Below, piece by piece: positions 1 through 62,604 of a DNA stretch of 64,000 nt (within the stretch, counting starts at the first letter, position 1; every line of letters begins with the position of its first letter). The notes below the pieces were generated by a model. That model worked only from the letters and a program-made list of their open reading frames with translations. It did not search any database and was not told the origin of the DNA. Location: positions 1,426,001 to 1,490,000 of the forward strand of contig JBAIAA010000693.1 of the NCBI GenBank assembly GCA_037893245.1. Reading direction: 5' to 3'. Made by a program: the position numbers and the translations under genes. Source of the DNA: Crossaster papposus (Eukaryota; Echinodermata; Asteroidea; Velatida; Solasteridae).

Positions 1-3000
1 AAAGCAAAAGAGGGGAGCGGGCTCAAATGTGCAGTATGTTATGACTTCACTGTTGGCAAGAGCAAAAAGGGGTGCGAGACAGCAAAAGAGGGGTGTGGGC
101 GCAAATGTGCAGTATGTTATGACTTCACTGTTGGCAAGGGCAAAAAGGGGTGCGAGAAAGCAAAAGAGGGGTGCGGGCGCAAACTTGCAGTATGTTATAA
201 CACTTCACTGTCTGCACTCGGAAAAAAAGGGGTGCGAGAAAGCAAAAGAGCGGTGCGGGCGCAAACTTGCAGTATGTTATAACACTTCACTGTTGGCACT
301 CGGAAAAAAAGGGGTGCGAGAAAGCAAAAGAGCGGTGCGGGCGCAAACTTGCAGTATGTTATGACTTCACTGTTGGCAAGAACAAAAAAGGGGTCCGAGA
401 AAGCAAAAGAGGGGTGCGGGCGCAAATGTGCAGTATGTTATGACTTCACTGTTGACAACAGCAAAAAGGGGTGCGAGAAAGCGAAAGAGGTGTGCGGGCG
501 CAAATTTGCAGTATGTTATGACTTCACTGTTGGCAACAGCAAAAAGGGGTGCGAGAAAGCAAAAGAGGGGTGCGGGCGCAAATTTGCAGCATGTTGTGAC
601 TTTACTGTTGGCAAGAGCAAAAGGGGGTGCGAAAAAGCAAATGAGGGGTGCGGGCGCAAATTTGCAGTATATTATGACTTCACTGTTGGCGACAGCAAAA
701 TGGGATGCGAGAAAGCAAAAGAGGGGAGCGGGCTCAAATTTGCAGTATGTTATGACTTCACTGTTGGCAAGAGCAAAAAGGGGTGCGAGACAGCAAAAGA
801 GGGGTGTGGGCGCAAATGTGCAGTTTGTTATGACTTCACTGTTGGCAAGGGCAAAAAGGGGTGCGAGAAAGCAAAAGAGGGGTGCGGGCGCAAACTTGCA
901 GTATGTTATAACACTTCACTGTCTGCACTCGGAAAAAAAGGGGTGCGAGAAAGCAAAAGAGCGGTGCGGGCGCAAACTTGCAGTATGTTATAACACTTCA
1001 CTGTTGGCACTCGGAAAAAAAGGGGTGCGAGAAAGCAAAAGAGCGGTGCGGGCGCAAACTTGCAGTATGTTATGACTTCACTGTTGGCAAGAACAAAAAA
1101 GGGGTCCGAGAAAGCAAAAGAGGGGTGCGGGCGCAAATGTGCAGTATGTTATGACTTCACTGTTGGCAAGAGCAAAAAGGGGTGCGATAAAGCAAAAGAG
1201 GGGTGCGGGCGCAAATTTGCAGTATGTTATGACTTCACTGTTGGCACGAACAAAAAGGGGTGCGGAAAAGCAAAAAAAGGGTGCGGGCGCAAATTTGCAG
1301 TATGTTATGACTTCACTGTTGGCAACAGCAAAAAGGGTGCAAGAAAGCAAAAGAGGGGTGTGTGCGCAAATTTGCAGTATCTTATGACTTCACTGTTGGC
1401 AAGAGCAAAAAGGGGTGCGAGACAGCAAAAGAGGGGTGTGGGCGCAAATGTGCAGTATGTTATGACTTCACTGTTGGCAAGGGCAAAAAGGGGTGCGAGA
1501 AAGCAAAAGAGGGGTGCGGGCGCAAACTTGCAGTATGTTATAACACTTCACTGTTGGCACTCGGAAAAAAAGGGGTGCGAGAAAGCAAAAGAGCGGTGCG
1601 GGCGCAAACGTGCAGTATGTTATGACTTCACTGTTGGCAAGAACAAAAAGGGGTCCGAGAAAGCAAAAGAGGGGTGCGGGCGCAAATGTGCAGTATGTTA
1701 TGACTTCACTGTTGACAACAGCAACAAGGGGTGCGAGAAAGCAAAAGAGGTGTGCGGGCGCAAATTTGCAGTATGTTATGACTTCACTGTTGGCAACAGC
1801 AAAAAGGGGTGCGAGAAAGCAAAAGAGGGGTGCGGGCGCAAATTTGCAGCATGTTGTGACTTTACTGTTGGCAAGAGCAAAAGGGGGTGCGAAAAAGCAA
1901 ATGAGGGGTGCGGGCGCAAATTTGCAGTATATTATGACTTCACTGTTGGCGACAGCAAAATGGGATGCGAGAAAGCAAAAGAGGGGAGCGGGCTCAAATG
2001 TGCAGTATGTTATGACTTCACTGTTGGCAAGAGCAAAAAGGGGTGCGAGACAGCAAAAGAGGGGTGTGGGCGCAAATGTGCAGTATGTTATGACTTCACT
2101 GTTGGCAAGGGCAAAAAGGGGTGCGAGAAAGCAAAAGAGGGGTGCGGGCGCAAACTTGCAGTATGTTATAACACTTCACTGTCTGCACTCGGAAAAAAAG
2201 GGGTGCGAGAAAGCAAAAGAGCGGTGCGGGCGCAAACTTGCAGTATGTTATGACTTCACTGTTGGCAAGAACAAAAAAGGGGTCCGAGAAAGCAAAAGAG
2301 GGGTGCGGGCGCAAATGTGCAGTATGTTATGACTTCACTGTTGACAACAGCAAAAAGGGGTGCGAGAAAGCGAAAGAGGTGTGCGGGCGCAAATTTGCAG
2401 TATGTTATGACTTCACTGTTGGCAACAGCAAAAAGGGGTGCGAGAAAGCAAAAGAGGGGTGCGGGCGCAAATTTGCAGCATGTTGTGACTTTACTGTTGG
2501 CAAGAGCAAAAGGGGGTGCGAAAAAGCAAATGAGGGGTGCGGGCGCAAATTTGCAGTATATTATGACTTCACTGTTGGCGACAGCAAAATGGGATGCGAG
2601 AAAGCAAAAGAGGGGAGCGGGCTCAAATTTGCAGTATGTTATGACTTCACTGTTGGCAAGAGCAAAAAGGGGTGCGAGACAGCAAAAGAGGGGTGTGGGC
2701 GCAAATGTGCAGTATGTTATGACTTCACTGTTGGCAAGGGCAAAAAGGGGTGCGAGAAAGCAAAAGAGGGGTGCGGGCGCAAACTTGCAGTATGTTATAA
2801 CACTTCACTGTCTGCACTCGGAAAAAAAGGGGTGCGAGAAAGCAAAAGAGCGGTGCGGGCGCAAACTTGCAGTATGTTATAACACTTCACTGTTGGCACT
2901 CGGAAAAAAAGGGGTGCGAGAAAGCAAAAGAGCGGTGCGGGCGCAAACTTGCAGTATGTTATGACTTCACTGTTGGCAAGAACAAAAAAGGGGTCCGAGA

Positions 3001-3289
3001 AAGCAAAAGAGGGGTGCGGGCGCAAATGTGCAGTATGTTATGACTTCACTGTTGACAACAGCAAAAAGGGGTGCCAGAAAGCAAAAGAGGGGCGCGGGCG
3101 CAAATTTGCAGTATGTTATGACTTCACTGTTGGCAAGAGCAAAAAGAGGTGCGATAAAGCAAAAGAGGGGTGCGGGCGCAAATTTGCAGTATGTTATGAC
3201 TTTACTGTTGGCAAGAGCAAAAAGGGGTGCGATAAAGCAAAAGAGGGGTGCGGGCGCAAATTTGCAGTATATTATGACTTCACTGTTGG

Positions 3290-6200
3290 CAACAGCAAAA
3301 AGGGGTGCAAGAAAGCAAAAGAGGGGTGGGGGCGCAAATTTGCAGTATGTTATGACTTCACTGTTGGCAAGAGCAAAAAGGGGTGCGAGACAGCAAAAGA
3401 GGGGTGTGTGCGCAAATGTGCAGTATGTTATGACTTCACGGTTGGCAAGAACAAAAAAGGGGTGCGAGAAAGCAAAAGAGGGGTGCGGGCGCAAACTTGC
3501 AGTATGTTATAACACTTCACTGTTGGCACTCGGACAAAAAGGGGTGCGAGAAAGCAAAAGAGCGGTGCGGGCGCAAACTTGCAGTATGTTATGACTTCAC
3601 TGTTGGCAAGAACAAAAAGGGGTCCGAGAAAGCAAAAGAGGGGTGCGGGCGCAAATGTGCAGTATGTTATGACTTCACTGTTGACAACAGCAAAAAGGGG
3701 TGCGAGAAAGCAAAAGAGGTGTGCGGGCGCAAATTTGCAGTATGTTATGACTTCACTGTTGGCAACAGCAAAAAGGGGTGCGAGAAAGCAAAAGAGGGGT
3801 GCGGGCGCAAATTTGCAGCATGTTGTGACTTTACTGTTGGCAAGAGCAAAAGGGGGTGCGAAAAAGCAAATGAGGGGTGCGGGCGCAAATTTGCAGTATA
3901 TTATGACTTCACTGTTGGCGACAGCAAAATGGGATGCGAGAAAGCAAAAGAGGGGAGCGGGCTCAAATTTGCAGTATGTTATGACTTCACTGTTGGCAAG
4001 AGCAAAAAGGGGTGCGAGACAGCAAAAGAGGGGTGTGGGCGCAAATGTGCAGTATGTTATGACTTCACTGTTGGCAAGGGCAAAAAGGGGTGCGAGAAAG
4101 CAAAAGAGGGGTGCGGGCGCAAACTTGCAGTATGTTATAACACTTCACTGTCTGCACTCGGAAAAAAAGGGGTGCGAGAAAGCAAAAGAGCGGTGCGGGC
4201 GCAAACTTGCAGTATGTTATAACACTTCACTGTTGGCACTCGGAAAAAAAGGGGTGCGAGAAAGCAAAAGAGCGGTGCGGGCGCAAACTTGCAGTATGTT
4301 ATGACTTCACTGTTGGCAAGAACAAAAAAGGGGTCCGAGAAAGCAAAAGAGGGGTGCGGGCGCAAATGTGCAGTATGTTATGACTTCACTGTTGACAACA
4401 GCAAAAAGGGGTGCCAGAAAGCAAAAGAGGGGCGCGGGCGCAAATTTGCAGTATGTTATGACTTCACTGTTGGCAAGAGCAAAAAGGGGTGCGATAAAGC
4501 AAAAGAGGGGTGCGGGCGCAAATTTGCAGTATGTTATGACTTTACTGTTGGCAAGAGCAAAAAGGGGTGCGATAAAGCAAAAGAGGGGTGCGGGCGCAAA
4601 TTTGCAGTATATTATGACTTCACTGTTGGCAACAGCAAAAAGGGGTGCAAGAAAGCAAAAGAGGAGTGGGGGCTCAAATTTGCAGTATGTTATGACTTCA
4701 CTGTTGGCAAGAGCAAAAAGGGGTGCGAGACAGCAAAAGAGGGGTGTGTGCGCAAATGTGCAGTATGTTATGACTTCACGGTTGGCAAGAACAAAAAAGG
4801 GGTGCGAGAAAGCAAAAGAGGGGTGCGGGCGCAAACTTGCAGTATGTTATAACACTTCACTGTTGGCACTCGGACAAAAAGGGGTGCGAGAAAGCAAAAG
4901 AGCGGTGCGGGCGCAAATTTGCAGCATGTTGTGACTTTACTGTTGGCAAGAGCAAAAGGGGGTGCGAAAAAGCAAATGAGGGGTGCGGGCGCAAATTTCC
5001 AGTATATTATGACTTCACTGTTGGCGACAGCAAAATGGGATGCGAGAAAGCAAAAGAGGGGAGCGGGCTCAAATTTGCAGTATGTTATGACTTCACTGTT
5101 GGCAAGAGCAAAAAGGGGTGCGAGACAGCAAAAGAGGGGTGTGGGCGCAAATGTGCAGTATGTTATGACTTCACTGTTGGCAAGGGCAAAAAGGGGTGCG
5201 AGAAAGCAAAAGAGGGGTGCGGGCGCAAACTTGCAGTATGTTATAACACTTCACTGTCTGCACTCGGAAAAAAAGGGGTGCGAGAAAGCAAAAGAGCGGT
5301 GCGGGCGCAAACTTGCAGTATGTTATAACACTTCACTGTTGGCACTCGGAAAAAAAGGGGTGCGAGAAAGCAAAAGAGCGGTGCGGGCGCAAACTTGCAG
5401 TATGTTATGACTTCACTGTTGGCAAGAACAAAAAAGGGGTCCGAGAAAGCAAAAGAGGGGTGCGGGCGCAAATGTGCAGTATGTTATGACTTCACTGTTG
5501 ACAACAGCAAAAAGGGGTGCGAGAAAGCAAAAGAGGTGTGCGGGCGCAAATTTGCAGTATGTTATGACTTCACTGTTGGCAACAGCAAAAAGGGGTGCGA
5601 GAAAGCAAAAGAGGGGTGCGGGCGCAAATGTGCAGTATGTTATGACTTCACTGTTGACAACAGCAAAAAGGGGTGCAAGAAAGCAAAAGAGGGGTGGGGG
5701 CGCAAATTTGCAGTATGTTATGACTTCACTGTTGGCAAGAGCAAAAAGGGGTGCGAGACAGCAAAAGAGGGGTGTGTGCGCAAATGTGCAGTATGTTATG
5801 ACTTCACGGTTGGCAAGAACAAAAAAGGGGTGCGAGAAAGCAAAAGAGGGGTGCGGGCGCAAACTTGCAGTATGTTATAACACTTCACTGTTGGCACTCG
5901 GACAAAAAGGGGTGCGAGAAAGCAAAAGAGCGGTGCGGGCGCAAACTTGCAGTATGTTATGACTTCACTGTTGGCAAGAACAAAAAGGGGTCCGAGAAAG
6001 CAAAAGAGGGGTGCGGGCGCAAATGTGCAGTATGTTATGACTTCACTGTTGACAACAGCAAAAAGGGGTGCGAGAAAGCAAAAGAGGTGTGCGGGCGCAA
6101 ATTTGCAGTATGTTATGACTTCACTGTTGGCAACAGCAAAAAGGGGTGCGAGAAAGCAAAAGAGGGGTGCGGGCGCAAATTTGCAGCATGTTGTGACTTT

Positions 6201-7993
6201 ACTGTTGGCAAGAGCAAAAGGGGGTGCGAAAAAGCAAATGAGGGGTGCGGGCGCAAATTTGCAGTATATTATGACTTCACTGTTGGCGACAGCAAAATGG
6301 GATGCGAGAAAGCAAAAGAGGGGAGCGGGCTCAAATTTGCAGTATGTTATGACTTCACTGTTGGCAAGAGCAAAAAGGGGTGCGAGACAGCAAAAGAGGG
6401 GTGTGGGCGCAAATGTGCAGTATGTTATGACTTCACTGTTGGCAAGGGCAAAAAGGGGTGCGAGAAAGCAAAAGAGGGGTGCGGGCGCAAACTTGCAGTA
6501 TGTTATAACACTTCACTGTCTGCACTCGGAAAAAAAGGGGTGCGAGAAAGCAAAAGAGCGGTGCGGGCGCAAACTTGCAGTATGTTATAACACTTCACTG
6601 TTGGCACTCGGAAAAAAAGGGGTGCGAGAAAGCAAAAGAGCGGTGCGGGCGCAAACTTGCAGTATGTTATGACTTCACTGTTGGCAAGAACAAAAAAGGG
6701 GTCCGAGAAAGCAAAAGAGGGGTGCGGGCGCAAATGTGCAGTATGTTATGACTTCACTGTTGACAACAGCAAAAAGGGGTGCCAGAAAGCAAAAGAGGGG
6801 CGCGGGCGCAAATTTGCAGTATGTTATGACTTCACTGTTGGCAAGAGCAAAAAGGGGTGCGATAAAGCAAAAGAGGGGTGCGGGCGCAAATTTGCAGTAT
6901 GTTATGACTTTACTGTTGGCAAGAGCAAAAAGGGGTGCGATAAAGCAAAAGAGGGGTGCGGGCGCAAATTTGCAGTATATTATGACTTCACTGTTGGCAA
7001 CAGCAAAAAGGGGTGCAAGAAAGCAAAAGAGGAGTGGGGGCTCAAATTTGCAGTATGTTATGACTTCACTGTTGGCAAGAGCAAAAAGGGGTGCGAGACA
7101 GCAAAAGAGGGGTGTGTGCGCAAATGTGCAGTATGTTATGACTTCACGGTTGGCAAGAACAAAAAAGGGGTGCGAGAAAGCAAAAGAGGGGTGCGGGCGC
7201 AAACTTGCAGTATGTTATAACACTTCACTGTTGGCACTCGGACAAAAAGGGGTGCGAGAAAGCAAAAGAGCGGTGCGGGCGCAAATTTGCAGCATGTTGT
7301 GACTTTACTGTTGGCAAGAGCAAAAGGGGGTGCGAAAAAGCAAATGAGGGGTGCGGGCGCAAATTTCCAGTATATTATGACTTCACTGTTGGCGACAGCA
7401 AAATGGGATGCGAGAAAGCAAAAGAGGGGAGCGGGCTCAAATTTGCAGTATGTTATGACTTCACTGTTGGCAAGAGCAAAAAGGGGTGCGAGACAGCAAA
7501 AGAGGGGTGTGGGCGCAAATGTGCAGTATGTTATGACTTCACTGTTGGCAAGGGCAAAAAGGGGTGCGAGAAAGCAAAAGAGGGGTGCGGGCGCAAACTT
7601 GCAGTATGTTATAACACTTCACTGTCTGCACTCGGAAAAAAAGGGGTGCGAGAAAGCAAAAGAGCGGTGCGGGCGCAAACTTGCAGTATGTTATAACACT
7701 TCACTGTTGGCACTCGGAAAAAAAGGGGTGCGAGAAAGCAAAAGAGCGGTGCGGGCGCAAACTTGCAGTATGTTATGACTTCACTGTTGGCAAGAACAAA
7801 AAAGGGGTCCGAGAAAGCAAAAGAGGGGTGCGGGCGCAAATGTGCAGTATGTTATGACTTCACTGTTGACAACAGCAAAAAGGGGTGCGAGAAAGCAAAA
7901 GAGGTGTGCGGGCGCAAATTTGCAGTATGTTATGACTTCACTGTTGGCAACAGCAAAAAGGGGTGCGAGAAAGCAAAAGAGGGGTGCGGGCGC
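3290..7993. repeat. 2,368-bp near-tandem duplication within the satellite
   Basis: Order and private variants of units around 3,290-5,625 recur at 5,658-7,993, a shift of 2,368 bp. Examples are the rare AGGAGTGGGGGCTC variant (about 4,662 and 7,030) and AATTTCCAGTATATT (about 4,996 and 7,364). Part of the same unit order returns at about 9,344-10,617 (shift 6,395 from 2,949), so this block has been copied more than once. Boundaries are read from unit order and are good to about one unit. Confidence 0.8.
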
Positions 7994-8551
7994 AAATTTG
8001 CAGTATATTATGACTTCACTGTTGGCGACAGCAAAATGGGATGCGAGAAAGCAAAAGAGGGGAGCGGGCTCAAATTTGCAGTATGTTATGACTTCACTGT
8101 TGGCAAGAGCAAAAAGGGGTGCGAGACAGCAAAAGAGGGGTGTGGGCGCAAATGTGCAGTATGTTATGACTTCACTGTTGGCAAGGGCAAAAAGGGGTGC
8201 GAGAAAGCAAAAGAGGGGTGCGGGCGCAAACTTGCAGTATGTTATAACACTTCATTGTCTGCACTCGGAAAAAAAGGGGTGCGAGAAAGCAAAAGAGCGG
8301 TGCGGGCGCAAACTTGCAGTATGTTATAACACTTCACTGTTGGCAAGAACAAAAAAGGGGTCCGAGAAAGCAAAAGAGGGGTGCGGGCGCAAATGTGCAG
8401 TATGTTATGACTTCACTGTTGACAACAGCAAAAATGGGTGCGAGAAAGCAAAAGAAGGGTGCGGGCGCAAATGTGCAGTATGTTATGACTTCACGGTTGG
8501 CAAGAACAAAAAAGGGGTGCGAGAAAGCAAAAGAGGGGTGCGGGCGCAAAC

Positions 8552-11250
8552 TTGCAGTATGTTATAACACTTCACTGTTGGCACTCGGACAAAAAGGGGT
8601 GCGAGAAAGCAAAAGAGCGGTGCGGGCGCAAACTTGCAGTATGTTATGACTTCACTGTTGGCAAGAACAAAAAGGGGTCCGAGAAAGCAAAAGAGGGGTG
8701 CGGGCGCAAATGTGCAGTATGTTATGACTTCACTGTTGACAACAGCAAAAAGGGGTGCGAGAAAGCAAAAGAGGTGTGCGGGCGCAAATTTGCAGTATGT
8801 TATGACTTCACTGTTGGCAACAGCAAAAAGGGGTGCGAGAAAGCAAAAGAGGGGTGCGGGCGCAAATTTGCAGCATGTTGTGACTTTACTGTTGGCAAGA
8901 GCAAAAGGGGGTGCGAAAAAGCAAATGAGGGGTGCGGGCGCAAATTTGCAGTATATTATGACTTCACTGTTGGCGACAGCAAAATGGGATGCGAGAAAGC
9001 AAAAGAGGGGAGCGGGCTCAAATTTGCAGTATGTTATGACTTCACTGTTGGCAAGAGCAAAAAGGGGTGCGAGACAGCAAAAGAGGGGTGTGGGCGCAAA
9101 TGTGCAGTATGTTATGACTTCACTGTTGGCAAGGGCAAAAAGGGGTGCGAGAAAGCAAAAGAGGGGTGCGGGCGCAAACTTGCAGTATGTTATAACACTT
9201 CACTGTCTGCACTCGGAAAAAAAGGGGTGCGAGAAAGCAAAAGAGCGGTGCGGGCGCAAACTTGCAGTATGTTATAACACTTCACTGTTGGCACTCGGAA
9301 AAAAAGGGGTGCGAGAAAGCAAAAGAGCGGTGCGGGCGCAAACTTGCAGTATGTTATGACTTCACTGTTGGCAAGAACAAAAAAGGGGTCCGAGAAAGCA
9401 AAAGAGGGGTGCGGGCGCAAATGTGCAGTATGTTATGACTTCACTGTTGACAACAGCAAAAAGGGGTGCCAGAAAGCAAAAGAGGGGCGCGGGCGCAAAT
9501 TTGCAGTATGTTATGACTTCACTGTTGGCAAGAGCAAAAAGGGGTGCGATAAAGCAAAAGAGGGGTGCGGGCGCAAATTTGCAGTATGTTATGACTTTAC
9601 TGTTGGCAAGAGCAAAAAGGGGTGCGATAAAGCAAAAGAGGGGTGCGGGCGCAAATTTGCAGTATATTATGACTTCACTGTTGGCAACAGCAAAAAGGGG
9701 TGCAAGAAAGCAAAAGAGGGGTGGGGGCGCAAATTTGCAGTATGTTATGACTTCACTGTTGGCAAGAGCAAAAAGGGGTGCGAGACAGCAAAAGAGGGGT
9801 GTGTGCGCAAATGTGCAGTATGTTATGACTTCACGGTTGGCAAGAACAAAAAAGGGGTGCGAGAAAGCAAAAGAGGGGTGCGGGCGCAAACTTGCAGTAT
9901 GTTATAACACTTCACTGTTGGCACTCGGACAAAAAGGGGTGCGAGAAAGCAAAAGAGCGGTGCGGGCGCAAACTTGCAGTATGTTATGACTTCACTGTTG
10001 GCAAGAACAAAAAGGGGTCCGAGAAAGCAAAAGAGGGGTGCGGGCGCAAATGTGCAGTATGTTATGACTTCACTGTTGACAACAGCAAAAAGGGGTGCGA
10101 GAAAGCAAAAGAGGTGTGCGGGCGCAAATTTGCAGTATGTTATGACTTCACTGTTGGCAACAGCAAAAAGGGGTGCGAGAAAGCAAAAGAGGGGTGCGGG
10201 CGCAAATTTGCAGCATGTTGTGACTTTACTGTTGGCAAGAGCAAAAGGGGGTGCGAAAAAGCAAATGAGGGGTGCGGGCGCAAATTTGCAGTATATTATG
10301 ACTTCACTGTTGGCGACAGCAAAATGGGATGCGAGAAAGCAAAAGAGGGGAGCGGGCTCAAATTTGCAGTATGTTATGACTTCACTGTTGGCAAGAGCAA
10401 AAAGGGGTGCGAGACAGCAAAAGAGGGGTGTGGGCGCAAATGTGCAGTATGTTATGACTTCACTGTTGGCAAGGGCAAAAAGGGGTGCGAGAAAGCAAAA
10501 GAGGGGTGCGGGCGCAAACTTGCAGTATGTTATAACACTTCACTGTCTGCACTCGGAAAAAAAGGGGTGCGAGAAAGCAAAAGAGCGGTGCGGGCGCAAA
10601 CTTGCAGTATGTTATAACACTTCACTGTTGGCACTCGGAAAAAAAGGGGTGCGAGAAAGCAAAAGAGCGGTGCGGGCGCAAACTTGCAGTATGTTATGAC
10701 TTCACTGTTGGCAAGAACAAAAAAGGGGTCCGAGAAAGCAAAAGAGGGGTGCGGGCGCAAATGTGCAGTATGTTATGACTTCACTGTTGACAACAGCAAA
10801 AAGGGGTGCGAGAAAGCAAAAGAGGTGTGCGGGCGCAAATTTGCAGTATGTTATGACTTCACTGTTGGCAACAGCAAAAAGGGGTGCGAGAAAGCAAAAG
10901 AGGGGTGCGGGCGCAAATTTGCAGTATATTATGACTTCACTGTTGGCGACAGCAAAATGGGATGCGAGAAAGCAAAAGAGGGGAGCGGGCTCAAATTTGC
11001 AGTATGTTATGACTTCACTGTTGGCAAGAGCAAAAAGGGGTGCGAGACAGCAAAAGAGGGGTGTGGGCGCAAATGTGCAGTATGTTATGACTTCACTGTT
11101 GGCAAGGGCAAAAAGGGGTGCGAGAAAGCAAAAGAGGGGTGCGGGCGCAAACTTGCAGTATGTTATAACACTTCACTGTCTGCACTCGGAAAAAAAGGGG
11201 TGCGAGAAAGCAAAAGAGCGGTGCGGGCGCAAACTTGCAGTATGTTATAA
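8552..11250. repeat. 1,340-bp repeated block within the satellite
   Basis: The unit order beginning at 8,552 repeats at 9,892 (shift 1,340). The same spacing separates the landmark pairs of 82-bp units at 2,795/4,135 and 9,190/10,530. The block is a run of 78-bp units closed by two or three 82/79-bp units, a recurring grammar in the left third of the array. Confidence 0.7.
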
Positions 11251-46230: not shown

Positions 46231-46627
46231 TATGTTATGACTTCACTGTTGGCAAGAACAAAAAGGGGTCCGAGAAAGCAAAAGAGGGGTGCGGGCGCAA
46301 ATGTGCAGTATGTTATGACTTCACTGTTGGCAAGAACAAAACGGGGTGCGAGAAAGCAAATGAGGGGTGCGGGCGCAAATGTGCAGTATGTTATGACTTC
46401 ACTGTTGGCAAGAACAAAAAGGGGTGCGAGAAAGCAAAAGAGGGGTGCGGGCGCAAATGTGCAGTATGTTATGACTTCACTGTTGACAACAACAAAAAGG
46501 GGTGCGAGAAAGCAAAAGAGGGGCGTTGGCGCAAATTTGCAGTATGTTATGAATTCACTGTTGGCAAGAGCAAAAAGGGGTGCGATAAAGCAAAAGAGGG
46601 GTGCGGGCGCAAATGTGCAGTATGTTA

Positions 46628-49123: not shown

Positions 49124-50520
49124 AATTTGCAGTATATTATGACTTCACTGTTGGCAAGAACAAAAAGGGGTGCGAGAAAGCAAAAGAGGGGTGCGAGAAA
49201 GCAAATGAGGGGTGCAGGCGGAAATGTGCAGTATGTTATGACTTCACTGTTGGCAAGGGCAAAAAGGGGTGCGAGAAAGCAAAAGAGGGGTGCGGGCGCA
49301 AAATTGCAGTATGTTATAACACTTCACTGTTGGCACTCGAAAAAAAAGGGGTGCGAGAAAGCAAAAGAGCGGTGCGGGCGCAAACTTGCAGTATGTTATA
49401 ACACTTCACTGTTGGCACTCGGAAAAAAAGGGGTGCGAGAAAGCAAAAGAGCGGTGCGGGCGCAAAGTTGCAGTATGTTATGACTTCACTGTTGGCAAGA
49501 ACACAAAGGGGTCCGAGAAAGCAAAAGAGGGGTGCGGGCGCAAATGTGCAGTATGTTATGACTTCACTGTTGGCAAGAACAAAAAGGGGTGCGAGAAAGC
49601 AAATGAGGGGTGCGGGCGCAAATGTGCAGTATGTTATGACTTCACTGTTGGCAAGAACAAAAAGGGGTGCGAGAAAGCAAAAGAGGGGTGCGGGCGCAAA
49701 CGTGCAGTATGTTATGACTTCACTGTTGACAACAACAAAAAGGGGTGCGAGAAAGCAACAGAGGTGTGCGGGCGCAAATTTGCAGTATGTTATGACTTCA
49801 CTGTTGGCAACAGCAAAAAGGGGTGCGAGAAAGCAAAAGAGGGGTGCGGGCGCAAATTTGCAGCATGTTGTGACTTTACTGTTGGCAAGAGCAAAAGGGG
49901 GTGCGAAAAAGCAAATGAGGGGTGCGGGCGCCAATTTGCAGTATATTATGACTTCACTGTTGGCAAGAACAAAAAGGGGTGCGAGAAAGCAAAAGAGGGG
50001 TGCGAGAAAGCAAATGAGGGGTGCGGGCGGAAATGTGCAGTATGTTATGACTTCACTGTTGGCAAGGGCAAAAAGGGGTGCGAGAAAGCAAAAGAGGGGT
50101 GCGGGCGCAAAATTGCAGTATGTTATAACACTTCACTGTTGGCACTCGAAAAAAAAGGGGTGCGAGAAAGCAAAAGAGCGGTGCGGGCGCAAACTTGCAG
50201 TATGTTATAACACTTCACTGTTGGCACTCGGAAAAAAAGGGGTGCGAGAAAGCAAAAGAGCGGTGCGGGCGCAAAGTTGCAGTATGTTATGACTTCACTG
50301 TTGGCAAGAACACAAAGGGGTCCGAGAAAGCAAAAGAGGGGTGCGGGCGCAAATGTGCAGTATGTTATGACTTCACTGTTGGCAAGAACAAAAAGGGGTG
50401 CGAGAAAGCAAATGAGGGGTGCGGGCGCAAATGTGCAGTATGTTATGACTTCACTGTTGGCAAGAACAAAAAGGGGTGCGAGAAAGCAAAAGAGGGGTGC
50501 GGGCGCAAATGTGTAGTATG
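48900..50520. repeat. 809-bp tandem duplication within the satellite
   Basis: The run starting near 48,900 recurs about 809 bp on (landmarks 49,386 and 50,195; 49,125 and 49,934). The length equals seven 78-bp, two 82-bp and one 99-bp unit. Both copies contain the CGCCAATTTG variant and the 99-bp unit. Confidence 0.8.
49165..49217. repeat. 99-bp satellite unit with 21-bp internal duplication, first case
   Basis: Within one unit the segment GGGGTGCGAGAAAGCAAA is present twice in direct succession, giving three GGGGTGC boxes instead of two and a unit of 99 bp. The GGGGTGCG box, present twice in every unit, is the obvious homology for slippage. The same structure is at about 49,974-50,030 and 55,274-55,330. 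Confidence 0.85.
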
Positions 50521-53500
50521 TTATGACTTCACTGTTGACAACAGCAAAAAGGGGTGCGAGAAAGCAAAAGAGGGGCGCTGGCGCAAATTTGCAGTATATT
50601 ATGACTTCACTGTTGGCGACAGCAAAATGGGATGCGAGAAAGCAAAAGAGGGGAGCGGGCGCAAATTTGCAGTATGTTATGACTTAACTGTTGGCAAGAG
50701 CAAAAAAGAGTGCGAGACAGCAAAAGAGGGGTGTGGGCGCAAATGTGCAGTATGTTATGACTTCACTGTTGGCAAGGGCAAAAAGGGGTGCGAGAAAGCA
50801 AAAGAGGGGTGCGGGCGCAAACTTGCAGTATGTTATAACACTTCAGTGTTGGCACTCGAAAAAAAAGGGGTGCGAGAAAGCAAAAGAGCGGTGCGGGCGC
50901 AAACTTGCAGTATGTTATAACACTTCACTGTTGGCACTCGGAAAAAAAGGGGTGCGAGAAAGCAAAAGAGCGGTGCGGGCGCAAAGTTGCAGTATGTTAT
51001 GACTTCACTGTTGGCAAGAACAAAAAGGGGTCCGAGAAAGCAAAAGAGGGGTGCGGGCGCAAATGTGCAGTATGTTATGACTTCACTGTTGGCAAGAACA
51101 AAAAGGGGTGCGAGAAAGCAAATGAGGGGTGCGGGCGCAAATGTGCAGTATGTTATGACTTCACTGTTGGCAAGAACAAAAAGGGGTGCGAGAAAGCAAA
51201 AGAGGGGTGCGGGCGCAAATGTGCAGTATGTTATGACTTCACTGTTGACAACAACAAAAAGGGGTGCGAGAAAGCAAAAGAGGGGCGTTGGCGCAAATTT
51301 GCAGTATGTTATGAATTCACTGTTGGCAAGAGCAAAAAGAGGTGCGATAAAGCAAAAGAGGGGTGCGGGCGCAAATTTGCAGTATGTTATGACTTCACTG
51401 TTGGCAAGAGCAAAAAGGGGTGCGAGAAAGCAAAAGAGGGGCGCTGGCGCAAATTTGCAGTATGTTATGACTTAACTGTTGGCAAGAGCAAAAAAGAGTG
51501 CGAGACAGCAAAAGAGGGGTGTGGGCGCAAATGTGCAGTATGTTATGACTTCACTGTTGGCAAGGGCAAAAAGGGGTGCGAGAAAGCAAAAGAGGGGTGC
51601 GGGCGCAAAATTGCAGTATGTTATAACACTTCACTGTTGGCACTCGAAAAAAAAAAGGTGCGAGAAAGCAAAAGAGCGGTGCGGGCGCAAACTTGCAGTA
51701 TGTTATAACACTTCACTGTTGGCACTCGGAAAAAAAAGGGTGCGAGAAAGCAAAAGAGATTGGTGCGGGCGCAAAGTTGCAGTATGTTATGACTTCACTG
51801 TTGGCAAGAACACAAAGGGGTCCGAGAAAGCAAAAGAGGGGTGCGGGCGCAAATGTGCAGTATGTTATGACTTCACTGTTGGCAAGAACAAAAAGGGGTG
51901 CGAGAAAGCAAATGAGGGGTGCGGGCGCAAATGTGCAGTATGTTATGACTTCACTGTTGACAACAGCAAAAAGGGGTGCGAGAAAGCAAAAGAGGGGCGC
52001 TGGCGCAAATTTGCAGTATATTATGACTTCACTGTTGGCGACAGCAAAATGGGATGCGAGAAAGCAAAAGAGGGGAGCGGGCGCAAATTTGCAGTATGTT
52101 ATGACTTAACTGTTGGCAAGAGCAAAAAAGAGTGCGAGACAGCAAAAGAGGGGTGTGGGCGCAAATGTGCAGTATGTTATGACTTCACTGTTGGCAAGGG
52201 CAAAAGGGGTGCGAGAAAGCAAAAGAGGGGTTCGGGCGCAAAATTGCAGTATGTTATAACACTTCACTGTTGGCACTCGAAAAAAAAGGGGTGCGAGAAA
52301 GCAAAAGAGCGGTGCGGGCGCAAACTTGCAGTATGTTATAACACTTCACTGTTGGCACTCGGAAAAAAAGGGGTGCGAGAAAGCAAAAGAGCGGTGCGGG
52401 CGCAAAGTTGCAGTATGTTATGACTTCACTGTTGGCCAGAACACAAAGGGGTCCGAGAAAGCAAAAGAGGGGTGCGGGCGCAAATGTGCAGTATGTTATG
52501 ACTTCACTGTTGGCAAGAACAAAAAGGGGTGCGAGAAAGCAAATGAGGGGTGCGGGCGCAAATGTGCAGTATGTTATGACTTCACTGTTGGCAAGAACAA
52601 AAAGGGGTGCGAGAAAGCAAAAGAGGGGTGCGGGCGCAAATGTGTAGTATGTTATGACTTCACTGTTGACAACAGCAAAAAGGGGTGCGAGAAAGCAAAA
52701 GAGGGGCGCTGGCGCAAATTTGCAGTATATTATGACTTCACTGTTGGCGACAGCAAAATGGGATGCGAGAAAGCAAAAGAGGGGAGCGGGCGCAAATTTG
52801 CAGTATGTTATGACTTAAGTGTTGGCAAGAGCAAAAAAGAGTGCGAGACAGCAAAAGAGGGGTGTGGGCGCAAATGTGCAGTATGTTATGACTTCACTGT
52901 TGGCAAGGGCAAAAAGGGGTGCGAGAAAGCAAAAGAGGGGTGCGGGCGCAAACTTGCAGTATGTTATAACACTTCACTGTTGGCACTCGGAAAAAAAGGG
53001 TGCGAGAAAGCAAAAGAGCGGTGCGGGCGCAAACTTGCAGTATGTTATAACACTTCACTGTTGGCACTCGGGAAAAAAGGGGTGCGAGAAAGCAAAAGAG
53101 CGGTGCGGGCGCAAACTTGCAGTATGTTATGACTTCACTGTTGGCAACAGCAAAAAAGGGGTGCGAGAAAGCAAAAGAGGGGTGCGGGCGCAAATTTGCA
53201 GCATGTTGTGACTTTACTGTTGGCAAGAGCAAAAGGGGGTTCGAAAAAGCAAATGAGGGGGGCGAGCGCAAATTTGCAGTATGTTATGACTTCAATGTTG
53301 GCAAGAGCAAAAAGGGGTGCGATAAAGCAAAAGAGGGGTGCGGGCGCAAATTTGCAGTATGTTATGACTTCACTGTTGGCAAGAACAAAAAGGGGTCCGA
53401 GAAAGCAAAAGAGGGGTGCGGGCGCAAATGTGCAGTATGTTATGACTTCACTGTTGGCAAGAACAAAAAGGGGAGCGAGAAAGCACAAGAGGTGTGCGGG

Positions 53501-53820
53501 CGCAAATGTGCAGTATGTTATGACTTCACTGTTGACAACAGCAAAAAGGGGTGCGAGAAAGCAAAAGATGGGCGCGGGAGCAAATTTGCAGTATCTTATG
53601 ACTTCACTGTTGGCAAGAGCAAAAAGGGGTGCGATAAAGCAAAAGAGGGGTGCGGGCGCAAACTTGCAGTATGTTATAACACTTCACTGTTGGCACTCGG
53701 AAAAAAAGGGGTGCGAGAAAGCAAAAGAGCGGTGCGGGCGCAAACTTGCAGTATGTTATGACTTCACTGTTGGCAAGAACAAAAAGGGGTGCGATAAAGC
53801 AAAAGAGGGGTGCGGGCGCA
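49690..53820. repeat. 5,304-bp spaced duplication, left copy (holds the empty LINE site)
   Basis: Landmarks 50,195, 50,905 and 51,611 correspond to 55,499, 56,209 and 56,915 (shift 5,304). Beyond the LINE the shift is 5,691 (52,326/58,017; 53,117/58,808; 53,746/59,437). Shared rare variants include AAGAGATTGGTGCGGG (about 51,754 and 57,445) and a long A run in ACTCGAAAAAAAAAAGGTG. At 51,611-51,640 this copy has an uninterrupted unit where the right copy has the LINE. Confidence 0.92.
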
Positions 53821-56800
53821 AATGTGCAGTATGTTATGACTTCACTGTTGACAACAGCAAAAAGGGGTGCGAGAAAGCAAAAGAGGTGTGCGGGCGCAAA
53901 TTTGCAGTATGTTATGAGTTCACTGTTGGCAACAGCAAAAAGGGGAGCGAGAAAGCAAAAGAGGGGTGCGGGCGCAAATTTGCAGCATGATGTGACTTTA
54001 CTGTTGGCGACAGCAAAATGGGATGCGAGAAAGCAAAAGAGGGGAGCGGGTGCAAATTTGCAGTATGTTATGACTTAACTGTTGGCAAGAGCAAAAAAGA
54101 GTGCGAGACAGCAAAAGAGGGGTGTGGGCGCAAATGTGCAGTATGTTATGACTTCACTGTTGGCAAGGGCAAAAAGGGGTGCGAGAAAGCAAAAGAGGGG
54201 TGCGGGCGCAAAATTGCAGTATGTTATAACACTTCACTGTTGGCACTCGAAAAAAAAGGGGTGCGAGAAAGCAAAAGAGCGGTGCGGGCGCAAACTTGCA
54301 GTATGTTATAACACTTCACTGTTGGCACTCGGAAAAAAAGGGGTGCGAGAAAGCAAAAGAGCGGTGCGGGCGCAAAGTTGCAGTATGTTATGACTTCACT
54401 GTTGGCCAGAACACAAAGGGGTCCGAGAAAGCAAAAGAGGGGTGCGGGCGCAAATGTGCAGTATGTTATGACTTCACTGTTGGCAAGAACAAAAAGGGGT
54501 GCGGAAAAGCAACAGAGGTGTGCGGGCGCAAATTTGCAGTATGTTATGACTTCACTGTTGGCAACAGCAAAAAGGGGTGCGAGAAAGCAAAAGAGGGGTG
54601 CGGGCGCAAATTTGCAGCATGTTGTGACTTTACTGTTGGCAAGAGCAAAAGGGGGTGCGAAAAAGCAAATGAGGGGTACGAGCGCAAATTTGCAGTATAT
54701 TATGACTTCACTGTTGGCGACAGCAAAAGGAGATGCGAGAAAGCAAAAGAGGGGTGTGGGCGCAAATGTGCAGTATGTTATGACTTCACTGTTGGCAAGG
54801 GCAAAAAGGGGTGCGAGAAAGCAACAGAGGGGTGCGGGCGCAAACTTGCAGTATGTTATAACACTTCACTGTTGGCACTCTGAAAAAAAGGGGTGCGAGA
54901 AAGCAAAAGAGCGGTGCGGGCGCAAACTTGCAGTATGTTATGACTTCACTGTTGGCAAGAGCAAAAAGGGGTGCGGAAAAGCAAAAGAGGGGTGCGGGCG
55001 CAAACGTGCAGTATGTTATGACTTCACTGTTGACAACAACAAAAAGGGGTGCGAGAAAGCAACAGAGGTGTGCGGGCGCAAATTTGCAGTATGTTATGAC
55101 TTCACTGTTGGCAACAGCAAAAAGGGGTGCGAGAAAGCAAAAGAGGGGTGCGGGCGCAAATTTGCAGCATGTTGTGACTTTACTGTTGGCAAGAGCAAAA
55201 GGGGGTGCGAAAAAGCAAATGAGGGGTGCGGGCGCAAATTTGCAGTATATTATGACTTCACTGTTGGCAAGAACAAAAAGGGGTGCGAGAAAGCAAAAGA
55301 GGGGTGCGAGAAAGCAAATGAGGGGTGCGGGCGGAAATGTGCAGTATGTTATGACTTCACTGTTGGCAAGGGCAAAAAGGGGTGCGAGAAAGCAAAAGAG
55401 GGGTGCGGGCGCAAAATTGCAGTATGTTATAACACTTCACTGTTGGCACTCGAAAAAAAAGGGGTGCGAGAAAGCAAAAGAGCGGTGCGGGCGCAAACTT
55501 GCAGTATGTTATAACACTTCACTGTTGGCACTCGGAAAAAAAGGGGTGCGAGAAAGCAAAAGAGCGGTGCGGGCGCAAAGTTGCAGTATGTTATGACTTC
55601 ACTGTTGGCAAGAACACAAAGGGGTCCGAGAAAGCAAAAGAGGGGTGCGGGCGCAAATGTGCAGTATGTTATGACTTCACTGTTGGCAAGAACAAAAAGG
55701 GGTGCGAGAAAGCAAATGAGGGGTGCGGGCGCAAATGTGCAGTATGTTATGACTTCACTGTTGGCAAGAACAAAAAGGGGTGCGAGAAAGCAAAAGAGGG
55801 GTGCGGGCGCAAATGTGTAGTATGTTATGACTTCACTGTTGACAACAGCAAAAAGGGGTGCGAGAAAGCAAAAGAGGGGCGCTGGCGCAAATTTGCAGTA
55901 TATTATGACTTCACTGTTGGCGACAGCAAAATGGGATGCGAGAAAGCAAAAGAGGGGAGCGGGCGCAAATTTGCAGTATGTTATGACTTAACTGTTGGCA
56001 AGAGCAAAAAAGAGTGCGAGACAGCAAAAGAGGGGTGTGGGCGCAAATGTGCAGTATGTTATGACTTCACTGTTGGCAAGGGCAAAAAGGGGTGCGAGAA
56101 AGCAAAAGAGGGGTGCGGGCGCAAACTTGCAGTATGTTATAACACTTCACTGTTGGCACTCGAAAAAAAAGGTGTGCGAGAAAGCAAAAGAGCGGTGCGG
56201 GCGCAAACTTGCAGTATGTTATAACACTTCACTGTTGGCACTCGGAAAAAAAGGGGTGCGAGAAAGCAAAAGAGCGGTGCGGGCGCAAAGTTGCAGTATG
56301 TTATGACTTCACTGTTGGCAAGAACAAAAAGGGGTCCGAGAAAGCAAAAGAGGGGTGCGGGCGCAAATGTGCAGTATGTTATGACTTCACTGTTGGCAAG
56401 AACAAAAAGGGGTGCGAGAAAGCAAATGAGGGGTGCGGGCGCAAATGTGCAGTATGTTATGACTTCACTGTTGGCAAGAACAAAAAGGGGTGCGAGAAAG
56501 CAAAAGAGGGGTGCGGGCGCAAATGTGCAGTATGTTATGACTTCACTGTTGACAACAACAAAAAGGGGTGCGAGAAAGCAAAAGAGGGGCGTTGGCGCAA
56601 ATTTGCAGTATGTTATGAATTCACTGTTGGCAAGAGCAAAAAGGGGTGCGATAAAGCAAAAGAGGGGTGCGGGCGCAAATTTGCAGTATGTTATGACTTC
56701 ACTGTTGGCAAGAGCAAAAAGGGGTGCGAGAAAGCAAAAGAGGGGCGCTGGCGCAAATTTGCAGTATGTTATGACTTAACTGTTGGCAAGAGCAAAAAAG

Positions 56801-56924
56801 AGTGCGAGACAGCAAAAGAGGGGTGTGGGCGCAAATGTGCAGTATGTTATGACTTCACTGTTGGCAAGGGCAAAAAGGGGTGCGAGAAAGCAAAAGAGGG
56901 GTGCGGGCGCAAAATTGCAGTATG

Positions 56925-57071
56925 CTAGTTACACTTGGTGCAAGGGCTTTTTCCACAGCAGCACCGACACTGTGGAATTCACTTCCCAGTCATTTAAGAG
57001 AAGAACGTAGTCTCGTAGTTTTTAAACGTAAGTTAAAGACATTTCTTTTTACTGACGCTTTTGCAAAGTAA
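56925..57071 (+). pseudogene. C-terminal remnant of LINE reverse-transcriptase protein
   Basis: This is an open stretch of 48 codons ending in TAA at 57,069-57,071. The peptide starts LVTLGARAFS and contains RAFSTAAPTLWNSLP, then SHLREERSLVVF, then a basic FKRKLKTFLF segment and a short AFAK tail. The RAF...AAP.LWNSLP...F...LK..LF pattern is the very common extreme C-terminus of CR1/L2-type ORF2 proteins, downstream of the endonuclease and reverse-transcriptase domains, which are absent here. In the full element it would belong to the enzyme that copies the RNA at a nicked genomic site. The upstream in-frame ATG at 56,880 and codons up to 56,924 are satellite sequence, so there is no native start. 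The fragment cannot be functional alone. It is the only protein-family match I trust in the window. Confidence 0.9.
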
Positions 57072-57296
57072 CTATTTTTATTCTGTATTTTTATACTGGT
57101 ACTGGTATGAATCTTAAATTTGTAGCTGTTTTTAAGGAGATCATTAATTGTGCTAAATAAATGTTACATGTATTATACTTAGATTGTAGTATTTTTAGTA
57201 GGTTTAATTTAATTGTAAAGTATATTTTTTAAAGATTATACCTGTTATGCGCTATTGATCATTTTTTATAATGGAAATAGCGCAATATAAATGTCA
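57072..57296 (+). other. LINE 3' UTR with terminal hairpin
   Basis: AT-rich non-coding tail after the stop codon. An AATAAA hexamer lies at 57,156-57,161. Near the end, TGCGCTATT (57,248-57,256) pairs perfectly with AATAGCGCA (57,276-57,284), and an inner CATT/AATG pair can extend the stem. 3'-terminal hairpins of this kind are known in CR1/L2-related LINEs, where the reverse transcriptase is thought to recognise them. Confidence 0.8.
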
Positions 57297-57318
57297 AATT
57301 ATTATTATTATTATTATT
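57297..57318 (+). repeat. (ATT)n microsatellite tail of the LINE
   Basis: About seven ATT/TTA repeats join the LINE 3' end to satellite at ACTTCACTG. Such a short 3' microsatellite in place of poly(A) is typical of CR1, L2 and related LINEs. The last two or three bases could belong to either side. Confidence 0.9.
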
Positions 57319-60300
57319 ACTTCACTGTTGGCACTCGAAAAAAAAAAGGTGCGAGAAAGCAAAAGAGCGGTGCGGGCGCAAACTTGCAGTATGTTATAAC
57401 ACTTCACTGTTGGCACTCGGAAAAAAAGGGGTGCGAGAAAGCAAAAGAGATTGGTGCGGGCGCAAAGTTGCAGTATGTTATGACTTCACTGTTGGCAAGA
57501 ACACAAAGGGGTCCGAGAAAGCAAAAGAGGGGTGCGGGCGCAAATGTGCAGTATGTTATGACTTCACTGTTGGCAAGAACAAAAAGGGGTGCGAGAAAGC
57601 AAATGAGGGGTGCGGGCGCAAATGTGCAGTATGTTATGACTTCACTGTTGACAACAGCAAAAAGGGGTGCGAGAAAGCAAAAGAGGGGCGCTGGCGCAAA
57701 TTTGCAGTATATTATGACTTCACTGTTGGCGACAGCAAAATGGGATGCGAGAAAGCAAAAGAGGGGAGCGGGCGCAAATTTGCAGTATGTTATGACTTAA
57801 CTGTTGGCAAGAGCAAAAAAGAGTGCGAGACAGCAAAAGAGGGGTGTGGGCGCAAATGTGCAGTATGTCATGACTTCACTGTTGGCAAGGGCAAAAGGGG
57901 TGCGAGAAAGCAAAAGAGGGGTTCGGGCGCAAAATTGCAGTATGTTATAACACTTCACTGTTGGCACTCGAAAAAAAAGGGGTGCGAGAAAGCAAAAGAG
58001 CGGTGCGGGCGCAAACTTGCAGTATGTTATAACACTTCACTGTTGGCACTCGGAAAAAAAGGGGTGCGAGAAAGCAAAAGAGCGGTGCGGGCGCAAAGTT
58101 GCAGTATGTTATGACTTCACTGTTGGCCAGAACACAAAGGGGTCCGAGAAAGCAAAAGAGGGGTGCGGGCGCAAATGTGCAGTATGTTATGACTTCACTG
58201 TTGGCAAGAACAAAAAGGGGTGCGAGAAAGCAAATGAGGGGTGCGGGCGCAAATGTGCAGTATGTTATGACTTCACTGTTGGCAAGAACAAAAAGGGGTG
58301 CGAGAAAGCAAAAGAGGGGTGCGGGCGCAAATGTGTAGTATGTTATGACTTCACTGTTGACAACAGCAAAAAGGGGTGCGAGAAAGCAAAAGAGGGGCGC
58401 TGGCGCAAATTTGCAGTATATTATGACTTCACTGTTGGCGACAGCAAAATGGGATGCGAGAAAGCAAAAGAGGGGAGCGGGCGCAAATTTGCAGTATGTT
58501 ATGACTTAAGTGTTGGCAAGAGCAAAAAAGAGTGCGAGACAGCAAAAGAGGGGTGTGGGCGCAAATGTGCAGTATGTTATGACTTCACTGTTGGCAAGGG
58601 CAAAAAGGGGTGCGAGAAAGCAAAAGAGGGGTGCGGGCGCAAACTTGCAGTATGTTATAACACTTCACTGTTGGCACTCGGAAAAAAAGGGTGCGAGAAA
58701 GCAAAAGAGCGGTGCGGGCGCAAACTTGCAGTATGTTATAACACTTCACTGTTGGCACTCGGGAAAAAAGGGGTGCGAGAAAGCAAAAGAGCGGTGCGGG
58801 CGCAAACTTGCAGTATGTTATGACTTCACTGTTGGCAACAGCAAAAAAGGGGTGCGAGAAAGCAAAAGAGGGGTGCGGGCGCAAATTTGCAGCATGTTGT
58901 GACTTTACTGTTGGCAAGAGCAAAAGGGGGTTCGAAAAAGCAAATGAGGGGGGCGAGCGCAAATTTGCAGTATGTTATGACTTCAATGTTGGCAAGAGCA
59001 AAAAGGGGTGCGATAAAGCAAAAGAGGGGTGCGGGCGCAAATTTGCAGTATGTTATGACTTCACTGTTGGCAAGAACAAAAAGGGGTCCGAGAAAGCAAA
59101 AGAGGGGTGCGGGCGCAAATGTGCAGTATGTTATGACTTCACTGTTGGCAAGAACAAAAAGGGGAGCGAGAAAGCACAAGAGGTGTGCGGGCGCAAATGT
59201 GCAGTATGTTATGACTTCACTGTTGACAACAGCAAAAAGGGGTGCGAGAAAGCAAAAGATGGGCGCGGGAGCAAATTTGCAGTATCTTATGACTTCACTG
59301 TTGGCAAGAGCAAAAAGGGGTGCGATAAAGCAAAAGAGGGGTGCGGGCGCAAACTTGCAGTATGTTATAACACTTCACTGTTGGCACTCGGAAAAAAAGG
59401 GGTGCGAGAAAGCAAAAGAGCGGTGCGGGCGCAAACTTGCAGTATGTTATGACTTCACTGTTGGCAAGAACAAAAAGGGGTGCGATAAAGCAAAAGAGGG
59501 GTGCGGGCGCAAACTTGCAGTATGTTATAACACTTCACTGTTGGCACTCGGAAAAAAAGGGGTGCGAGAAAGCAAAAGAGCGGTGCGGGCGCAAACTTGC
59601 AGTATGTTATGACTTCACTGTTGGCAAGAACAAAAAGGGGTCCGAGAAAGCAAATGAGGGGTGCGGGCGCAAATGTGCAGTATGTTATGACTTCACTGTT
59701 GACAACAGCAAAAAGGGGTGCGAGAAAGCAAAAGAGGTGTGCGGGCGCAAATTTGCAGTATGTTATGAGTTCACTGTTGGCAACAGCAAAAAGGGGAGCG
59801 AGAAAGCAAAAGAGGGGTGCGGGCGCAAATTTGCAGCATGTTGTGACTTTACTGTTGGCGACAGCAAAATGGGATGCGAGAAAGCAAAAGAGGGGAGCGG
59901 GCGCAAATTTGCAGTATGTTATGACTTAACTGTTGGCAAGAGCAAAAAAGAGTGCGAGACAGCAAAAGAGGGGTGTGGGCGCAAATGTGCAGTATGTTAT
60001 GACTTCACTGTTGGCAAGGGCAAAAAGGGGTGCGAGAAAGCAAAAGAGGGGTGCGGGCGCAAAATTGCAGTATGTTATAACACTTCACTGTTGGCACTCG
60101 AAAAAAAAGGGGTGCGAGAAAGCAAAAGAGCGGTGCGGGCGCAAACTTGCAGTATGTTATAACACTTCACTGTTGGCACTCGGGAAAAAAGGGGTGCGAG
60201 AAAGCAAAAGAGCGGTGCGGGCGCAAACTTGCAGTATGTTATGACTTCACTGTTGGCCAGAACACAAAGGGGTGCGAGAAAGCAAAAGAGGGGTGCGGGC

Positions 60301-61562
60301 GCAAATTTGCAGCATGTTGTGACTTTACTGTTGGCAAGAGCAAAAGGGGGTTCGAAAAAGCAAATGAGGGGGGCGAGCGCAAATTTGCAGTATGTTATGA
60401 CTTCAATGTTGGCAAGAGCAAAAAGGGGTGCGATAAAGCAAAAGAGGGGTGCGGGCGCAAATTTGCAGTATGTTATGACTTCACTGTTGGCAAGAACAAA
60501 AAGGGGTCCGAGAAAGCAAAAGAGGGGTGCGGGCGCAAATGTGCAGTATGTTATGACTTCACTGTTGGCAAGAACAAAAAGGGGAGCGAGAAAGCACAAG
60601 AGGTGTGCGGGCGCAAATGTGCAGTATGTTATGACTTCACTGTTGACAACAGCAAAAAGGGGTGCGAGAAAGCAAAAGATGGGCGCGGGAGCAAATTTGC
60701 AGTATCTTATGACTTCACTGTTGGCAAGAGCAAAAAGGGGTGCGATAAAGCAAAAGAGGGGTGCGGGCGCAAACTTGCAGTATGTTATAACACTTCACTG
60801 TTGGCACTCGGAAAAAAAGGGGTGCGAGAAAGCAAAAGAGCGGTGCGGGCGCAAACTTGCAGTATGTTATGACTTCACTGTTGGCAAGAACAAAAAGGGG
60901 TGCGATAAAGCAAAAGAGGGGTGCGGGCGCAAACTTGCAGTATGTTATAACACTTCACTGTTGGCACTCGGAAAAAAAGGGGTGCGAGAAAGCAAAAGAG
61001 CGGTGCGGGCGCAAACTTGCAGTATGTTATGACTTCACTGTTGGCAAGAACAAAAAGGGGTCCGAGAAAGCAAATGAGGGGTGCGGGCGCAAATTTGCAG
61101 CATGTTGTGACTTTACTGTTGGCAAGAGCAAAAGGGGGTGCGAAAAAGCAAATGAGGGGGGCGAGCGCAAATTTGCAGTATGTTATGACTTCACTGTTGG
61201 CAAGAGCAAAAAGGGGTGCGATAAAGCAAAAGAGGGGTGCGGGCGCAAATTTGCAGTATGTTATGACTTCACTGTTGGCAGGAACAAAAAGGGGTCCGAG
61301 AAAGCAAAAGAGGGGTGCGGGCGCAAATGTGCAGTATGTTATGACTTCACTGTTGGCAAGAACAAAAAGGGGAGCGTGAAAGCAAAAGAGGGGTGCGGGC
61401 GCAAATGTGCAGTATGTTATGACTTCACTGTTGGCAAGAGCAAAAAGGGGTGCGAGACAGCAAAAGAGGGGTGTGCGCGCACATTTGCAGTATGTTATGA
61501 CTTCACTGTTGGCAAGAGCAAAAAGGGGTGCGAGACAGCAAAAGAGGGGTGTGGGCGCAAAA
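57319..61562. repeat. Satellite array, right block to the array edge
   Basis: The same satellite in the same orientation resumes directly after the LINE tail and runs to the array edge, about 54 more units. The last unit ends at its GTGTGGGCGCAAA segment and passes through an A run into the foldback element. The exact edge within bases 61,557-61,565 is uncertain because both sides contribute A residues. Confidence 0.96.
58860..61080. repeat. 1,420-bp tandem duplication near the array edge
   Basis: Units at 58,887 and 59,437 recur at 60,307 and 60,857 (shift 1,420). Both copies carry GGGGGTTCGAAAAAGC, GACTTCAATGTTGGC, GAAAGCACAAGAGG and GATGGGCGCGGGAGC variants. It lies within 500 bp of the satellite edge. 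Confidence 0.85.
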
Positions 61563-61999: not shown

Positions 62000-62062
62000 G
62001 CCTAATTAGCATGCATGTGTCCTCCATTTAGATCAGGTAGACAAGTTTGGGAAAACAACTAA
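62000..62062. other. Loop between the foldback arms
   Basis: 63 bp of unpaired AT-rich sequence with a short self-complementary GCATGC inside. No recognisable coding or regulatory content. Confidence 0.8.
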
Positions 62063-62497: not shown

Positions 62498-62508
62498 GGC
62501 GCGGTGTA

Positions 62509-62604
62509 CTTTTCATCGGTCTTTTTTCATCGGTCTTTTTTCATCGGTCTTTTTTCATCGGTCTTTTTTCATCGGTCTTTTTTCATCGGTCTTTTTTCAT
62601 CGAT
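62509..62604. repeat. Seven-copy 14-bp tandem array (CTTTTTTCATCGGT)
   Basis: Copies start at about 62,509 (short first copy), 62,521, 62,535, 62,549, 62,563, 62,577 and 62,591. The last ends CATCGAT and leads into the next array. It begins 11 bp beyond the right end of the foldback element. Open frames here, rich in HRSFFIGLFSSV-like peptides, are repeat translation only. Confidence 0.95.

Follow-up and report, generated by a model that had tools for sequence, protein, structure and literature searches.

The giant array of a 78-bp unit on contig C693 of the Crossaster papposus assembly is, in our judgment, quite probably a satellite whose source was a minisatellite within the arms of a foldback-type element, one that is dispersed in the genome and probably non-autonomous. 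The birth of a satellite is usually hidden, the source being gone; here, the origin appears traceable, and one genome seems to hold a series (from a two-unit arm to a 675-kb array) that is anchored by flanks. The route is already known, and what makes this array notable is its size and the visible series of sizes. The stretch of DNA analyzed here, which we call the window, comprises 64,000 nucleotides (C693:1426001-1490000) of an assembly of 1.02 Gb and 1841 contigs; the larger interval C693:1230001-1490000 was taken in full and contains no N.

Positions 1 to 61562 of the window are one head-to-tail array of related 78-bp units (48% G+C), for which a unit scan gives 775 units, all on the forward strand and none on the reverse; these 61.6 kb are the right-hand end of an array that measures about 675 kb in all and stops at 61562. 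Tandem Repeats Finder (TRF) reports a period of 78 bp across 1-34713, more 78-bp rows to the right of that, and 234-bp multiples across 1-61561, and identity at a lag of 78 is 0.721 (0.274 in one letter-shuffled copy). Among the 771 window units that were analyzed, mean identity to the consensus is 93.1% and 189 sequences are distinct; 571 units are 78 bp long, 138 are 82 bp, 35 are 79 bp, 17 are 81 bp, and a few have other lengths. The only gap of more than 120 bp in the 249-kb forward block to which these units belong is a 394-bp insert on the forward strand (56925 to 57318), which ends in (ATT)n. Its first ~47 codons look like the last part of a reverse transcriptase from a non-LTR retrotransposon (the C-terminal end), and a Pfam search of the insert's peptide returned no match.

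How far does the array extend beyond the window? The forward block runs from 1238233 to about 1487562 and holds 3168 unit anchors, with one anchor beyond it that we take as chance. To its left, the units lie on the reverse strand (105 anchors, down to 1230006), and the switch from reverse to forward at ~1238.2 kb is head to head and direct, with a spacer of no more than a few bases. Farther left, unit matches on the reverse strand occupy 898552-902162 and 917144-1109927, and matches on the forward strand return from 812074 to 897747, so a second switch of orientation must lie within 897747-898552, where forward matches end and reverse matches begin. If the array is unbroken across 1109927-1230001 and between the listed matches, as we infer, it spans about 675 kb of C693, or roughly 8,600 units as estimated from assembled length. 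An earlier note, made from the window, had described a single 78-bp array that fills more than 61 kb and continues leftward, and this is confirmed as far as ~812 kb of C693. Its description of a very large satellite with a layered long-period structure is likewise supported. The uniform orientation that it noted holds only inside the window, because the whole array runs forward, reverse, and forward again, with two switches.

Marker sequences point to one giant locus. A 40-mer from a variant of the giant array has all 100 of its 100 forward sites on C693 (forward matches listed; 65 further sites are on the reverse strand). A 35-mer of the 82-bp variant has 424 forward sites: 327 lie in the forward block, and the listed matches put another 85 at 812-891 kb of C693 and 7 on contigs other than C693, which leaves 5 outside the listing, so that at least 412 of the 424 are on C693; it has 443 reverse sites, 8 of them on C90 and C152 among the matches listed, and a reverse block of 340 kb with the density of the forward block would be expected to supply ~446. 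A plain consensus 65-mer is more widely spread, with 134 forward and 130 reverse sites on at least 12 contigs besides C693 among the matches listed. Since the forward sites of the two variant markers are (almost) all on C693, the markers reveal no other giant array built of these variants; giant arrays composed of other unit variants could be missed by the markers that we used.

Within the forward block, 3157 units comprise 607 distinct sequences, of which 296 occur once, and unit types that occur at least 10 times account for 1917 units. The commonest spacing of exact 60-mers shifts between 10-kb bins, from 315 to 7551 bp, with dominant spacings that include 711, 1178, 1882, 2119, 3845, 4324, and 5632 bp. 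The long-period structure is, in other words, a patchwork of local block duplications with no single higher-order repeat. These same data bear on the thought that the assembly has inflated a much smaller number of units to the present size: long tandem arrays are prone to assembly error, but a loop over a few units is unlike a population in which 607 of 3157 units are distinct and 296 are seen only once, and the local block patterns change along the array, so we regard an artifact of this kind as highly improbable. Repetitiveness is low in the first bins (0.28 and 0.68), and two of the final three bins are low as well (0.64 and 0.67), which may hint at older array edges, with the understanding that nothing precedes the first bins and that the last bin includes 2.4 kb of non-array DNA. 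Column by column, the variability of the giant array correlates weakly with that of the small arrays described below (Spearman 0.37; 607 distinct units vs. 94 units), and the low variability in columns 1-23 is biased because the anchor used to find units covers those columns.

A unit of 78 bp is a multiple of 3 and its consensus is open in one frame, which raises the idea of a giant gene whose protein is built of a 26-residue repeat (KAKEGCGRKFAVCYDFTVGKSKKGCE). Some open frames do run to several hundred codons, and there is a sub-threshold Pfam match to zf-C2HC_2 (E 9e-6; 25.7 bits vs. a cut-off of 27). Against this stand the 82- and 79-bp units, which break the frame (of 200 length variants in the window, only 22 keep to a multiple of 3), the 367-381 stops in each forward frame of the window array, the lack of any PDB match for the translated unit, and the finding that, in each of seven unit sets (the window, the enclosing forward block, and five small arrays), codon position 2 varies more than the other two. 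We give the coding repeat next to no credence and rejected it on the codon-position pattern and the frame breaks. A search of the window at Rfam gathering thresholds gave 0 matches and no RNA genes. With its stops, frame breaks, and codon-position variability on one side and its long head-to-tail run of related units on the other, the array has the non-coding and tandem character of satellite DNA.

Where else does the unit occur? A translated-unit search of the genome finds short 78-bp arrays on many other contigs, and we looked at six such loci (C414, C762, C890, C279, C268, and C162), which hold from 2 to 34 units. In five of the six, the same outer flank follows directly after the array; at C890, the flank is of the inner side, and the outer flank appears inverted ~0.6 kb past the array (by eye). 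Shortly past the 78-bp array at this last locus (L045), there is also a palindrome, GTACACGAACCATCGGTACCGATGGTTCGTGTAC. In a complete scan, a 42-mer from the inner flank, allowed up to 3 mismatches, matches 56 sites spread over 34 contigs and none on C693; a 33-mer from the outer flank matches 162, and the 100 of these that are listed lie on 60 contigs. The earlier note could not place the unit in any family; that much is partly answered, in that a dispersed inverted-arm family of the same genome, which we call the parent family, has the unit in its arms.

The arrangement of the two flanks tells us what sort of family this is. Where outer sites on opposite strands are neighbors within 20 kb, the order is reverse then forward in 14 cases and forward then reverse in 0 (100 of 162 outer sites listed); for inner sites, the counts are 4 and 0. 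Outer and inner pairs together make up 16 separate loci, and all 16 run reverse then forward, which is to say that the inverted arms keep the fixed order of a foldback element. Of the 56 inner sites, 31 have an outer site on their own strand no more than 12 kb away, and in 29 of these the outer flank is on the 3' side of the inner (the other 25 have no such partner among the outer matches listed). The fixed strand order and the outer flank 3' of the inner together give the layout outer-array-inner ... inner-array-outer, as in a foldback element. Tandem repeats do sit inside the arms, with the array between outer and inner flanks at L046, L050, and C414, and array matches on both strands of a single locus are found at C152 and at C90. 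The 78-bp array is seen at 5 of the 16 inverted loci (C152, C170, C263, C474, and C686); at the other 11, the arms are 2-6 kb apart and no array is among the matches listed, so many family members may be array-free.

Same-strand neighbors are also present (10 reverse-reverse and 3 forward-forward for the outer matches listed; 12 and 2 for the inner sites), and 18 of these 27 pairs sit on C795 as tandem copies. Between 150 and 290 kb of that contig, arms of the parent family form a tandem series that all points the same way, often at intervals of ~6 kb, in contrast to the inverted pairs at other loci.

Peptides from the flanks had no Pfam match at E≤1, and 301 bases from the interior of the copy on C686 show no gene and have the look of a further tandem repeat. 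From its dispersal, we infer that the parent family is mobile, and it is probably a non-autonomous element of the foldback type. In the interior or inner flank of two parent copies (L051 and L047), we noticed a second tandem repeat, very roughly 190 bp by eye.

The same loci speak to the order of events, that is, to whether an ordinary satellite was there before the element and an unrelated inverted-repeat family then took pieces of it into its arms. The giant and small arrays have exact 65-mers and the 82-bp variant in common, and no parent flank is seen at the array on C693 (the inner is absent from the contig in the complete scan; the outer has no site there among the 100 of 162 listed), as one might expect if the satellite were the older of the two. 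Yet the small arrays occupy one position beside the same flanks in many copies, for which reason repeated capture is unlikely, and one copy (C162) has two units only, its end running into outer flank sequence. Capture of a preexisting satellite thus strikes us as unlikely, and we return to growth from within the arms as the preferred reading. We had at one time considered the 82-bp variant private to C693 and dropped the idea, as the variant is present on four other contigs: among the matches listed on contigs before C693, 15 exact 35-mers fall at C152, C474, C238, and C90. It is absent from all 127 units of the six small arrays. None of these 127 units is full-length identical to any unit in the 257 kb of C693 compared, so none of them matches as an exact donor of the giant array. 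In the left arm at C152, flank markers stand 9.1 kb apart with seven 82-bp-variant sites between them, and the right arm holds another such site, on the forward strand. An arm of ~9 kb is about 110 units if filled. Across the family, then, array size goes from 2 to 34 units at the loci examined, through one ~9-kb arm, to ~675 kb at C693.

How might so large an array have come about? Growth would have begun within the arm of a foldback-like element. At C693, an array-bearing arm would have lost its flanks, and repeated unequal exchange or replication-based duplication, in blocks of about 0.3-7.6 kb, could have supplied the amplification. The junction between reverse and forward units at 1238.2 kb may be where two element arms were joined after the middle was lost, or it may be a later inversion; the polarity of the switch matches two arms minus their middle, and an ordinary inversion within the array would look alike. 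Most likely, the array is maintained as selfish DNA that is non-coding and probably heterochromatic, and no cellular function need be invoked to account for it.

Foldback elements of sea urchins go by the name TU, and Helitrons have a layout that differs from the inverted-arm layout found here. Foldback elements generally, which include sea urchin ones (PMC4079207), share with the parent family their inverted arms with internal tandem repeats and, as far as the parent-family sequence examined goes, the lack of apparent coding capacity. The closest precedent is Tetris (with its TIR-220 repeats) of Drosophila virilis, described as an apparently non-autonomous foldback element with an AT-rich unit of about 220 bp, in which the long inverted arms contain tandem repeats with an outer flanking domain on one side and an inner domain on the other, and copy number differs between copies; the repeats also form longer satellite-like arrays (PMC4079207). 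Architecture and fate are similar in the two cases, a likeness by description and not by sequence, and there are differences, too: about 220 bp and AT-rich vs. 78 bp and 48% G+C here, arrays of up to 66 copies in the assembly vs. about 675 kb at one locus here, and target-site duplications seen in Tetris (PMC4079207), whereas the parent family is known from flanks, arrays, and dispersal. Growth of arrays internal to transposons is a recognized route to satellites, according to a 2025 review, and satellites of the Helitron type resemble this family in that element-borne and free-standing arrays coexist (PMC12628747). A search of open-access literature (titles and the openings of abstracts) found no title on such a satellite in echinoderms or sea cucumbers. 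If our reading is right, the Tetris model of foldback arms as satellite nurseries is extended to an echinoderm, with an array of much greater size, and the order of events becomes testable through unit phylogeny in sister species.

Might the array be the centromeric satellite of its chromosome, with a kinetochore function? Its size of about 675 kb, its layered block duplications, and the single gap of more than 120 bp across the 249-kb forward block all invite the suggestion. Alpha satellite is a very long, homogenized centromeric array with higher-order blocks. The giant array is like it in being very long and homogenized and in having higher-order blocks, and unlike it in that one giant locus is seen, with many local block sizes and no dominant higher-order repeat. 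That one locus (with the markers used, 100 of 100 and at least 412 of 424 forward sites on C693) counts mildly against a centromere satellite that every chromosome has in common, and positions 1-61562 of the window hold no motif like the CENP-B box, either strict or with one mismatch, which also sets the array apart from centromeric satellites such as alpha satellite. Some centromeres are chromosome-specific, and other centromeres of this genome may use other DNA or be unassembled. We consider a centromeric satellite quite unlikely, and a centromere role for the array is weakly disfavored. A more particular version, in which one foldback-element arm seeded the array and the array is now a young centromere specific to its chromosome, seems to us very unlikely. 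If it were true, opposite arm pairs would supply a seed repeat plus a recurrent source of inversion and duplication, and the series of 2 units, tens, a ~9-kb arm, and roughly 8,600 units would be a living series of centromere birth.

At its right edge, the array abuts a member of a second dispersed family, a foldback-like element with inverted repeats (61563 to 62497, defined by arm complementarity), the arms of which (61563-61669 and 62391-62497) are 107 nt long and 99% complementary, with nested arms besides. Tandem repeats of 14 bp and of 21/37 bp, on the forward strand at 62498 to 62830, make up the outer part of this family, as found by TRF and by comparison of copies. The family has 138 match pieces in the genome, and in three copies whose left side is visible (L030, L031, and L033), the sequence before the left arm mirrors the repeats after the element. 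In the window copy, the left outer part is missing and the 78-bp array stands in its place; array and element share a short GCGC..AAA stretch at the join, which suggests that they were joined by short homology. The notion that the array was built from this adjacent element was rejected: the sequence is different, and the element's own left outer part is cut at the array edge.

Some smaller observations may be recorded. In the window at 63124-63366, stretches at ~63124 and ~63318 look mutually inverted by eye, possibly a small inverted-repeat element, and at 63704-63891, there are short tandem repeats of 22 bp and 43 bp with ACGTTTA-like motifs. The 16,330-base contig C1841 carries a mitochondrial COX1 gene with 13 TGA codons under the bacterial code; translated with table 9 (AAA=N), its protein has asparagines in GFGNW and RMNNMSFW, the usual residue at those places, for which table 5 gives lysine, and such a code fits an echinoderm or a flatworm. 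Elsewhere in the assembly, contig C8, which is longer than 5.2 Mb, carries COX1 genes (2872001-2873343 and 5208663-5210009) that are open under the bacterial code, and for that reason, C8 is probably the genome of a bacterial companion.
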